A DNA stretch of 64,000 bases from Bullifex porci (GTDB lineage: Bacteria; Spirochaetota; Spirochaetia; Sphaerochaetales; Sphaerochaetaceae), in contig NZ_VUNN01000001.1 in NCBI RefSeq assembly GCF_009695635.1, forward strand, positions 62,001 through 126,000, written 5' to 3'. The position numbers and the translations under genes were made by a program. Below the pieces are notes generated by a model. It was given only the letters and a program-made list of their open reading frames with translations. It had not been told where the DNA came from and made no database searches. This document shows positions 2,742 to 5,269 of the stretch, piece after piece (the stretch's first letter is position 1; every line of letters starts with the position of its first letter).

Positions 2742-2775
2742 TCTCTTCTAAGCTAATAAGAATACTCTTTGACGT

Positions 2776-2799
2776 ACTCCCACGGGCAAGCCCATGGGA
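2776..2799 (-). ncRNA. Right-end hairpin and probable 3' part of the TnpB guide (omega) RNA
   Basis: On the minus strand CCCATGGGC-TT-GCCCGTGGG folds into a 9-bp stem, perfect if one G-U pair is allowed. It lies between the tnpB stop (2887) and the proposed right end (2769). In characterised TnpB elements the guide RNA scaffold ends here and its guide is the flanking chromosomal sequence, which would begin AGAGTATTCTTATTAGC on the minus strand (2768 downward). The RNA itself is inferred from family knowledge. Confidence 0.5.
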
Positions 2800-2886
2800 A
2801 TCTGGCCATGGTAACGACGGCTGCGTCCCGAAGGATGTCTTACACCGTCTCTGACCCGCGAGACCCGTCCGGCCTCGCCTTATGGT

Positions 2887-4038
2887 TTAGGCGTCCTTCG
2901 CCTGTTCCATTCGATTCATGATACGCTTTGCCTCAGCGAGTATATTCACCGCGGCATTCACGTCCCTGTCGTGATACACCCCGCATTTCGGGCAGGTCCA
3001 CTCACGGACACTGAGGTCTTTGGTGCTCGGCCACACATGCCCGCAGACGGAGCAGGTTTGGGACGACGGGTAGTACCGTCCAATCCTGATTACCCTGGTC
3101 TCGTACTTTCGGGCACACCACTCCAGGATTTCCACAAACTCCGAAAACGCATAGTCGTGGACCTTGCGTCCCCAGAGCCTCGCCATACCCTTGATATTAA
3201 GGTCTTCTATGGCTATGACGCCGTACCTTGAACAGAGTTCGTGGCTTAGCTTCCAGAACCAGTCCCTTCTCCTGTTTGCGATGTCCTGGTGCCTGCGGTA
3301 CAGTGCCTTCAGTGCACGCTCGTATCCGTTGCTCCCCATCACCTTACGGCTCAGGGCACGGTTCGCTTTTCGGACTTCGTTTACTCCCTGTCTGAAAAAC
3401 TCCGGGGATCTGATCACACTGCCGTCCGACAGCGAAAGGAACATCTTGAGTCCGAAGTCCATGCCGACCTCACCGCGCCCGTCCCTGGTTTCACGCATGG
3501 TGACGGGGCTGTCGGTGGTGACGTAGACGAAGAACTCTCCGAGTATGTTGCGCTTTATCGTTACGGTCTTGATTTTGATCCGTTCCAAAAGTCCATCATA
3601 GGAGTCCCAGTATCTGTAGATGTGTCCGTTTATGCTGATACGTCCGCCAGTAAGGAATCTGTATCCCGACTGTTTGTAGGTGACGCTTTTGTACTTTTTG
3701 ACCTTGCGACGACGCGGTGGCGAACATTTGACTCCCTTCTCCCTGTTAGTGAAAAACAGCCGGTACGCCCTGTATATCCTGTCGGTTATCTCCTGTACTG
3801 CCTGGCTTCCCACATATCGCCAGTGGCGGTTTTCATCCACGTTGCGAAGACCACGGAGCTGTTTCTGAAGTTCATATTTATCCAAAAGCTTCCCAGTTTC
3901 GGTATAGTGGTCCTGTATGATTGTCAGTGCCGTGTTGTATATGATACCGGCGATATTTATCATATCACTAAGGTATCCGAAGTCATCGCTATTGTACAGT
4001 TTTACTGTCAGTGTCCGCATGACATCATTATAGCACAT
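2887..4038 (-). CDS. tnpB: TnpB, RNA-guided RuvC-like endonuclease of an IS605-type element
   Basis: Programmable nuclease that, in studied members, cuts the donor site left after excision. The RuvC triad is visible as D194 (VGMDFGLKMF), E278 (AIEDLNIKGM) and D359 (HDRDVNAAVNIL). A zinc ribbon of C329, C332, C349 and C352 sits between the last two. The length, 383, is normal for a full TnpB, so the gene looks intact and potentially active. Homologues usually start at MRTLTVKLYN, the seventh codon (ATG at 4020), which is the more likely start; no good ribosome site separates the two. Codons are GC-rich and unlike the neighbouring genes, a sign of recent transfer. Confidence 0.93.
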   Translation of the reverse strand: MCYNDVMRTLTVKLYNSDDFGYLSDMINIAGIIYNTALTIIQDHYTETGKLLDKYELQKQLRGLRNVDENRHWRYVGSQAVQEITDRIYRAYRLFFTNREKGVKCSPPRRRKVKKYKSVTYKQSGYRFLTGGRISINGHIYRYWDSYDGLLERIKIKTVTIKRNILGEFFVYVTTDSPVTMRETRDGRGEVGMDFGLKMFLSLSDGSVIRSPEFFRQGVNEVRKANRALSRKVMGSNGYERALKALYRRHQDIANRRRDWFWKLSHELCSRYGVIAIEDLNIKGMARLWGRKVHDYAFSEFVEILEWCARKYETRVIRIGRYYPSSQTCSVCGHVWPSTKDLSVREWTCPKCGVYHDRDVNAAVNILAEAKRIMNRMEQAKDA

Positions 4039-4174
4039 TTTATGGCATTACGCATTATCGCCTTTCATCTCTCGGCCAAGGCACGTGGGCTTTCTCGGCG
4101 GTTAATTTGTAAATATTTATTTTTATTCTTCCCATTAATTATTTATTGCTTTATAGTGTAGTAGTATTTTTGAT

Positions 4175-4312
4175 AAGGAGATTATGGATTATGTCAACTA
4201 AAGACGATGGAAACCCTTTGCCTAGTTATTTTTATCTTGAAAGAATAATCCATCTTCACTTGTCATGATTTTTTAGTCTTGCATTTTGTAGATGGAAAAT
4301 GGAGTGCAGGAC
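4175..4312 (+). promoter_or_regulatory. Structured 5' leader of the CorA gene with SD-sequestering hairpin (candidate cis-regulatory RNA)
   Basis: Three paired elements are visible. P1 pairs ATGGATTAT (4184-4192) with ATAATCCAT (4245-4253), 9 perfect bp. Inside it AACTAAAG (4196-4203) pairs with CTTT and TAGTT (4216-4227). A separate hairpin pairs GTCTTGCA (4276-4283) with TGCAGGAC (4305-4312, one G-U) plus TTTT with AAAA. This leaves the Shine-Dalgarno GGAG (4301-4304) bulged next to the start codon at 4313. That is the geometry of a translational expression platform. It does not match the M-box or fluoride consensus as I know them. Ligand and function are unknown. Confidence 0.4.
4191..4268 (+). 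CDS. Possible 25-residue leader peptide (upstream ORF) before corA
   Basis: ATG at 4191 follows an AAGGAG (4175-4180) with 10-base spacing and runs 25 codons (MSTKDDGNPLPSY... to HLHLS) to TGA at 4268, eight bases before the hairpin that sequesters the corA ribosome site. A ribosome finishing here would overlap the 5' arm of that hairpin, so translation coupling is plausible. It could equally be a chance ORF or a gene remnant beside the mobile element. Confidence 0.35.
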   Translation: MSTKDDGNPLPSYFYLERIIHLHLS

Positions 4313-5269
4313 ATGATTACTATTAGAGCTAACGACGATAAGCGCAATTATACATGGGTAGATGTTAGAGATGTTAATAGAGAGGATTTATCTGTATTAA
4401 CAGAGGAATACTCAATTTCATCAGATTTATTAGCAGATATTTTGGACCAGGATGAACAGTCAAGAATTGAAAGAGGGGATGATTATACCTCTATAATTGT
4501 TCGTATCCCACTAGATGATGAGGACCAGGATTCTCCATTAATTCAAAATGCTATCCCACTTGGTATTATTCTTTATAAGGATAAGGTCATTACAATTTGC
4601 CAAGGTGATAGTGTAGTTCTTGAGGACTTTTCAAAGAGAAGATTCAGACAGTATCCAGTTGCAACAAAGGAGGGCTTTGTCCTTTCAATCTTAGGCCGCT
4701 CTGCTTTAGTCTTTATTAGAATGCTTAAATATATAAATAGACAGAAGGATATTGTAGAGGAGAGACTTCATGATGTTGTCACTAATGATGAGATCATAAG
4801 ATTACTCGATATACAAAAGTCTTTAGTTTATTTAACAACAAGCTTAACAACAAATGAAAGCTTACTTGAGAAGCTCTCAAAGACACCTATATTTAAATTA
4901 AATAGTGAAGAGGAAGTTGACTTTCTAAACGATGTAATAACAGATAATAAGCAGGCTATAGCCATGGCTAATATCTATTCAAGTATCTTAACAGGTACTA
5001 TGGAGGCATTTAGCTCGATTTTAGGAAATAATATGAACATCATAATGAAGAGGCTCACTATTATTTCACTTGCCTTAATGTTCCCAACCTTTATTACAGG
5101 CTTCTTTGGAATGAACGTAAGACTTCCTCATCAGGATAAATTCTTTGCGTGGGTTTTCTTACTAATTATTTGTATATTTGTTTCTATTTGCGGTTCCTTA
5201 ATTGTTAATAACTGGGATGTTAGTAAGCACCAACTAAAGAAACGCAAAAAGAAAAAAGATAAAAATTAA
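4313..5269 (+). CDS. corA: CorA-family magnesium/divalent cation transporter
   Basis: Inner-membrane Mg2+ (or Co2+/Ni2+) channel, a pentamer in known members. The C-terminus has two membrane helices with the signature GMN at the end of the first (TGFFGMNVRLP) and a lysine-rich tail inside (KKRKKKKDKN). The N-terminal ~240 residues are the cytosolic funnel, acidic and without membrane segments. An in-frame ATG at 4292 exists, but the second ATG at 4313 has GGAG at 8-base spacing and matches the family start (MITIRAN), so I chose 4313 (318 residues, usual length). The leader upstream is structured. The 3' end overlaps the convergent rlmI by 4 bases. Confidence 0.9.
   Translation: MITIRANDDKRNYTWVDVRDVNREDLSVLTEEYSISSDLLADILDQDEQSRIERGDDYTSIIVRIPLDDEDQDSPLIQNAIPLGIILYKDKVITICQGDSVVLEDFSKRRFRQYPVATKEGFVLSILGRSALVFIRMLKYINRQKDIVEERLHDVVTNDEIIRLLDIQKSLVYLTTSLTTNESLLEKLSKTPIFKLNSEEEVDFLNDVITDNKQAIAMANIYSSILTGTMEAFSSILGNNMNIIMKRLTIISLALMFPTFITGFFGMNVRLPHQDKFFAWVFLLIICIFVSICGSLIVNNWDVSKHQLKKRKKKKDKN

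Follow-up and report, generated by a model that had tools for sequence, protein, structure and literature searches.

A probable leader-peptide attenuator upstream of the Mg2+ channel gene corA in Bullifex porci and related spirochaetes

The leader of the Bullifex porci corA gene carries a short upstream ORF (uORF) with a conserved acidic peptide motif, together with RNA segments able to pair in two alternative ways. By analogy with known systems, this leader probably works by translational attenuation: an acidic/Gly/Pro peptide would cause the ribosome to falter at low Mg2+ and so raise CorA. Three components of this reading come directly from computation: a conserved coding motif, alternative helices that co-vary among relatives, and a switch in the accessibility of the corA Shine-Dalgarno sequence (SD) that depends on the position of the ribosome. 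The DNA analysed (the window) is a 64,000-nucleotide stretch of contig NZ_VUNN01000001.1, and the features of the leader are collected in Table 1.

A first-pass annotation of the window had named the gene corA, which is correct (Table 1); the protein is also matched by the TIGR00383 CorA equivalog model, with a score below that model's cut-off. The annotation's further claim of a uORF with an AAGGAG and an ATG at 4191 ahead of corA is borne out by the sequence. Comparing upstream sequences by eye, we found a TGTGNTACTAT-like element in relatives at the place of TGTAGTAGTAT in the window (4157-4167), and a consensus scan returned promoter sites no more numerous than in shuffles. No intrinsic terminator was found in the corA leader. 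A second ORF of five codons, ATGGATTATGTCAACTAA, lies in another frame at 4185-4202, overlapping the uORF start 4 nt past the SD, and may compete with the uORF for initiation.

Table 1. The corA leader of Bullifex porci: features and their positions in the window
Feature	Position	Strand	Basis
Candidate promoter (TTCCCA 4129-4134, TATAGT 4152-4157)	4129..4167	+	By-eye likeness to relatives; consensus scan no better than shuffles
Flank pairing	4171-4181 with 4256-4265	+	Fold
Shine-Dalgarno of uORF, AAGGAG	4175-4180	+	Sequence
r1, ATGGATTAT	4184..4192	+	Pairs with r2 4245-4253; fold and swap test
uORF, 25 codons + TGA, MSTKDDGNPLPSYFYLERIIHLHLS	4191..4268 (ATG 4191, TGA 4266-4268)	+	Present in 65/65 corA leaders; purifying selection on motif codons in relatives
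Conserved motif codons DDGNPLP, proposed ribosome-faltering site	4203..4223	+	Comparison; in simulation, corA SD most open with P-site at codon 5
r2, last uORF codons	4245..4265	+	Pairs with r1, or with r3 via TCCATCT 4249-4255
5' arm of hairpin occluding corA SD (r3:r4)	4276..4289	+	z -4.28, 0/200 shuffles
r3, AGATGGA, partner of r2 4249-4255, in loop of r3:r4 hairpin	4290..4296	+	Fold probabilities; swap test
r4, 3' arm with corA SD	4299..4312	+	Hairpin stability, simulation, swap test
corA SD, GGAG	4301-4304	+	Sequence; ATG at 4313
corA, Mg2+ channel, 318 aa	4313..5269	+	PF01544, 181 bits, E 5e-53

Directly upstream of the leader lies an IS200/IS605-type TnpB element, whose tnpB gene occupies 2887-4038 on the minus strand (guided_TnpB, NF040570). 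Matches to its other copies in the genome, of which about 10 are near-complete at 94-96% identity, place the element at 2769-4112; short solo copies of one of its ends (query 70 to about 280) also occur in the genome. Because the element stops 16 bp short of the first promoter-like hexamer ahead of corA, we take the leader to be native and outside it. Elsewhere in the window, a single ORF at 34-1710 joins a dihydroorotate dehydrogenase domain to a part that by eye resembles a PyrK-type electron-transfer protein; Pfam shows the first domain only.

CorA relatives were drawn from named genomes plus further genomes of the same group, giving 65 distinct corA leaders at a CorA protein identity of at least 50%. 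Every one of them (65/65) has a short ORF with its own SD and an acidic/Gly/Ser(+NPLP) N-terminal motif, the uORFs being chosen with an acidic-motif filter and their sequences also displayed without any filter. These ORFs begin with ATG or GTG, run for 14-32 codons and end a median of 35 nt before corA (range, 17 to 75 nt). Examples of the peptides are MDEGGSINPLPR, MDDGSYPLPG, MSDDSGSPLPR, MKRQSEEANPHPDS and MSTSDDGGSIRYR-like sequences, with the early acidic residues arranged as D-D, D-E, E-E, D-P or D-x-D near the N-terminus. The prolines are not invariant, and several leaders (among them L087, L088, and L090) keep DDGGS or DDSGS without PLP. It had been suggested that NPLP recalls the leader peptides of Mg2+ transporters; the acidic/proline likeness stands, while the emphasis on NPLP, which is not the invariant part, does not.

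Only the N-terminal motif of the uORF is conserved. Comparing the 24 leaders of the largest subgroup in pairs, we counted 0/108/824 differences at codon positions 1/2/3 of the motif and 826/815/680 in the tail that follows, which indicates that the motif is read as protein and that the tail is unconstrained as protein. The motif is also specific to its place: the peptide criterion picks out 64 of the 65 corA leaders and 2 of 306 other genes of the same DNA, and one of the two control matches is corA itself, so that the background is about 1/305. This ORF baseline was used to measure specificity in place of a strict DNA pattern (SD plus MD(D/E)GGS), which occurs at only 3 places in 18 genomes, all just upstream of corA, and is too strict for the purpose. 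Short ORFs of related appearance, MDDGKGPAFPFLLSA, MGDDGASPCPFLPLS and MDDGVLQPYPFLH, lie about 2.2 kb past the corA start (near 4790 in L045 and L047, near 4701 in L016 and L024); in L016 the gene after the short ORF encodes a HAD-type hydrolase, and the baseline matches there are of the MDDG/MGDDG type. These ORFs may be due to chance or may mark another target.

Computation divides the leader into four pairing segments. Across the leaders, r1 lies at the uORF SD and start, r2 spans the final codons of the uORF or follows directly on the stop, r3 lies immediately 5' of the corA SD, and r4 contains the SD. Fold prediction for the ribosome-free leader gives r1:r2 together with r3:r4, with r2:r3 as the alternative pairing. 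The r3:r4 hairpin of the window (4276-4289 with 4299-4312) ends at the corA ATG, and the 50-nt segment that holds it (4269-4318) folds at -15.4 kcal/mol compared to -6.7 ± 2.0 kcal/mol for dinucleotide shuffles, none of 200 being as good (z -4.28). This upholds the first-pass proposal of a hairpin pairing across the corA GGAG up to the ATG. Its details need amendment: the uORF stop does adjoin the hairpin, at a measured distance of 7 nt rather than eight, and the SD is not in a bulge, as the minimum-energy fold pairs it with a U-tract through G-U and A-U pairs. Stems had also been proposed in the upstream half, and an r1:r2 stem indeed exists with comparative support, but by itself it is about as stable as its shuffles (z -0.61). 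Since the stability of the entire leader is likewise not significant against shuffles (z -1.06), the case for leader structure rests on comparison rather than on stability.

Because the arms differ between species, that comparison took the form of a swap test, in which arms were exchanged between species and the pairing energies of matched and mismatched arms were compared over the 65 leaders. Matched arms paired better for all three proposed helices: r1:r2 (-19.3 versus -15.3 kcal/mol; 54/65 leaders, P = 7e-8), r2:r3 (-17.6 versus -11.4 kcal/mol; 63/65, P = 1e-11) and r3:r4 (-13.0 versus -9.7 kcal/mol; 52/65, P = 3e-9), these P values being optimistic, as the leader sequences are related and their independence is overstated. 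The control pairings r1:r3, r2:r4 and r1:r4 showed zero gain over the same 65 leaders. One r2:r3 pair in the MDEGGS group occurs as G-C in 12, A-T in 10, T-A in 1 and G-T in 1 of 26 leaders (0/1000 shuffles), counted on hand-anchored arms, as indels shift the columns of the MAFFT r3 alignment. The first-pass annotation had named corA homologues without the uORF or conserved stems as counterevidence; finding the uORF in all 65 leaders and three stems that co-vary supports its broader claim that uORF translation is coupled to corA initiation.

These comparisons bear on two other explanations of the leader. A structured leader ahead of a Mg2+ channel gene could be a metal-binding riboswitch with an incidental uORF. 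The first-pass annotation had matched the leader to no known riboswitch class, and Rfam agrees, placing zero families in the window at gathering score, the M-box included. The interval between motif and corA, where alignments vary widely, has no conserved aptamer core, and conservation is strongest in a coding stretch; we therefore regard a riboswitch as extremely unlikely. Alternatively, the uORF product could be a small protein acting in trans, on CorA for example, with the RNA structure incidental. Purifying selection on the N-terminal motif would fit such a protein, but a peptide of this length with an unconserved tail would not, and neither would leader segments that co-vary, with tail codons doubling as r2. 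A protein acting in trans thus seems very unlikely.

To model the effect of a translating ribosome, we set it on each uORF codon in turn with 15 nt covered from the P-site, refolded the downstream RNA and computed the cost of opening the corA leader from SD to ATG, using an energy model that ignores pseudoknots and co-transcriptional folding. An earlier measure reaching to -16 took in part of the r2:r3 helix, so that its sign was blurred or inverted for the MDEGGS and Aphodenecus-like groups; the SD-to-ATG measure replaced it. Averaged over the 65 leaders, the opening cost is 5.3 kcal/mol with the ribosome at the motif, 9.5 kcal/mol with the ribosome five or more codons further on, and 8.1 kcal/mol for the free leader. 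The cost is higher late than early in 63/65 leaders, by a mean of +4.3 kcal/mol compared to -0.8 kcal/mol for shuffles of the downstream part (P = 2.5e-12), and its steepest rise falls a median of +4 codons past the motif. The outcome is unchanged with 12, 15 or 18 nt covered; studies of mgtP used a ribosome cover of 12-15 nt (PMC3641672).

The window leader behaves similarly, with opening costs of 5.6 kcal/mol early, 10.2 kcal/mol late and 9.9 kcal/mol free. Its corA SD is unpaired to about 40% when the P-site is at Asp5 and to 0-6% in the free or late state, and r2:r3, a short helix of 7 bp, forms with a probability of 0.43 when the ribosome sits on codon 5 and of 0.00 in the free or late state. 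The switch shows most plainly at Asp5; when the ribosome stands precisely on the motif's final Pro, r3:r4 remains the preferred fold, and r2:r3 has a probability of 0.03.

The simulation also addresses the specific mechanism that the first-pass annotation had favored, namely, translational coupling, in which a ribosome that has reached the end of the uORF unfolds the hairpin's 5' arm, exposing the corA SD. The short gap between stop and stem in the window is compatible with coupling, and a terminating ribosome slightly lowers the opening cost there (8.0 versus 9.9 kcal/mol free). Over all 65 leaders, however, a ribosome at the stop covers r2 and leaves the SD shut, at a cost of 8.6 kcal/mol versus 8.1 free and 5.3 at the motif. 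Coupling would moreover have no need of a conserved N-terminal peptide motif, and the distance from uORF stop to corA varies more than fourfold among the leaders (see above). We consider this form of coupling quite unlikely, and the melting of the hairpin at the uORF stop was not upheld.

We instead propose that the leader works as an attenuator. In the absence of a ribosome, r1:r2 and r3:r4 would form and corA would be closed. A ribosome that falters on the D-D-G and then N-P-L-P codons, whether it pauses there or drops off and re-initiates, would occupy r1; this would leave r2 free for r3, so that r4 and the corA SD would be open and corA could be translated. A ribosome that reads on would cover r2, allowing r3:r4 to form and the SD to close. 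At low Mg2+ the ribosome would probably falter on this acidic/Gly/Pro nascent peptide through intrinsic destabilization, an effect described for MgtL and inferred for MgtQ, and the result would be more CorA. We infer uORF translation, faltering at the motif and Mg2+ as the signal, with low Mg2+ chosen by analogy with MgtL and mgtQ.

Both analogues come from enterobacteria, the group in which, within the literature searched, acidic/proline leader peptides are described as sensing Mg2+ through the ribosome. In Salmonella, mgtQ is a short ORF with early acidic codons before mgtB, and a ribosome on segment 1 favors the 2:3 pairing and opens the mgtB ribosome-binding site (RBS) (PMC8092293). Acidic codons impede uORF translation in attenuators of the mgtQ type, and ribosomal protein L31 counteracts this. 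The corA leaders share with this type a short ORF with its own SD near a Mg2+ transporter gene (in all 65) and early acidic codons. They also share, by computation, stems 1:2 and 3:4 opposed to 2:3, the target RBS in the last stem (segment 4), opening of that RBS by an early ribosome (63/65), and translational control. The differences are that mgtQ has 8 codons and lies between mgtC and mgtB in enterobacteria, whereas the uORFs described here have 14-32 codons, precede corA in spirochaetes and encode another peptide motif.

MgtL offers the closest parallel for the peptide. Its acidic and proline residues destabilize the ribosome at low Mg2+, raising mgtA in enterobacteria (PMC11282234, PMC11552253), with ribosome drop-off at an EPDP motif (PMC11282234). 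Two mutually exclusive folds of mgtL are set by ribosome progress, and the readout in Salmonella is mainly Rho-dependent termination (PMC11552253). The corA leaders resemble mgtL in having an acidic/proline N-terminus ahead of a Mg2+ transporter and alternative folds set by the ribosome; they differ in a readout that looks translational, in a D-D/E-G-(G)-S motif with PLP optional, and in the transporter family. We rejected an assignment of the corA uORF as MgtL, as EPDP is absent from the peptides listed and the window has DDGNPLP, although the uORF would work like MgtL.

Enterobacterial corA has a leader uORF of its own, corL, with two alternative folds and translation inverse to corA expression (PMC11552253); the spirochaete leaders are alike in having a uORF in a corA leader, two alternative folds and, as proposed, an inverse relation between uORF translation and CorA. 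CorL is described as starting at UUG, with a conserved N-terminus that has one proline and is poor in acidic residues, and as acting with Rho (PMC11552253). Judged by that description, the assignment as CorL was also rejected, given the ATG/GTG starts and different motif here. The mgtP and mgtM attenuators of the Salmonella mgtCBR leader are reported to respond to proline and ATP, with a readout mostly on transcription elongation (PMC3641672); as proposed for corA, ribosome position in a short ORF picks the alternative stem, and one stem sequesters an RBS. A mycobacterial M-box with a conserved uORF is also known as a Mg2+-responsive leader (PMC12810186), but the M-box is a metal-binding aptamer, to which the corA leader has no match.

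Similar peptides extend beyond the 65 leaders. Cognate peptides before corA in other Spirochaetia include MSDPDGGSPR, MPDSDGHS, MDSDPGS, MNDSDGGS, MDGGSSYPIR and, in L096, MNDPDGSSHPH, whereas such a peptide is absent from many corA leaders of one Treponema-like genus group. The acidic uORF is missing from corA in several related Treponema-like genomes of one family (L112, L115, L116, L120, and L123-L126). In the Lachnospirales (Bacillota), 7 of 18 corA leaders begin with MD (for example, MDVGPSYRR, MDCGPSPDKR, and MDLAPSC); these MDxGPS-type peptides have SDs (L146, L147, L148, L149, L151, L152, and L154), and simulation gives a similar rise in SD opening cost in five of the seven (L146, L147, L151, L152, and L154).

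The B. porci genome also encodes one MgtE, a Mg2+ channel non-homologous to CorA. Its gene (L171, G000:C3, around 47032) is preceded by AAGGAG and a leader ORF, MEEGSSRRSVQPQNEDTVPLSRTVSLL (MEEGSS...), whose last codons pair with its own SD. Both the motif and an r1:r2 stem are present in this leader, but the model shows no matching r3:r4 SD switch; an Rfam search of two mgtE loci gave no match, and no mgtE turned up in the other four genomes sampled from this genus. By a relaxed acidic/Gly/Pro criterion, such peptides precede 10 of 47 mgtE genes in the class versus 4 of 335 control genes (Fisher P = 2e-7), with MSDSDGGGSIPR, MDTDPGSC and M..ADGDDPLSR as examples. Three mgtE leaders of the same family (L202, L203, and L207) encode ADGDDPLSR or SDDPLSR; as a sequence, this acidic-acidic-proline motif is close to the known ribosome-destabilizing kind.

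No observation ties the leader to Mg2+ more strongly than the occurrence of what appears to be one peptide type ahead of two Mg2+ channels without homology to each other. This occurrence also weighs on the possibility that the attenuator has the same design with another signal, such as charged tRNA-Pro, EF-P/ABC-F capacity or general translation stress. Many of the motifs do include NPLP codons, and a response to proline supply has been reported for the mgtP and mgtA leaders (PMC3641672). Against such a signal, the motif has no run of Pro codons, the leaders lacking PLP retain the acidic core, and the motif precedes two unrelated Mg2+ channels. We think a signal other than Mg2+ rather unlikely.

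Tentatively, the DDGGS, DPGS and MDxGPS peptides may represent an unrecognized, widespread class of Mg2+-sensing nascent peptides, whose N-terminal acidic-Gly/Pro-Ser motif would cause ribosomes to falter at low Mg2+ and has become attached to the unrelated channels CorA and MgtE in Spirochaetota and Lachnospirales, and in which fast-evolving RNA switches stand behind a fixed peptide sensor. The approximately 80 natural peptide variants now at hand are a resource for learning what makes a nascent chain Mg2+ sensitive. With the motif ahead of both CorA and MgtE in spirochaetes and a similar peptide ahead of corA in Lachnospirales, reading Mg2+ by way of the ribosome may be general in bacteria.
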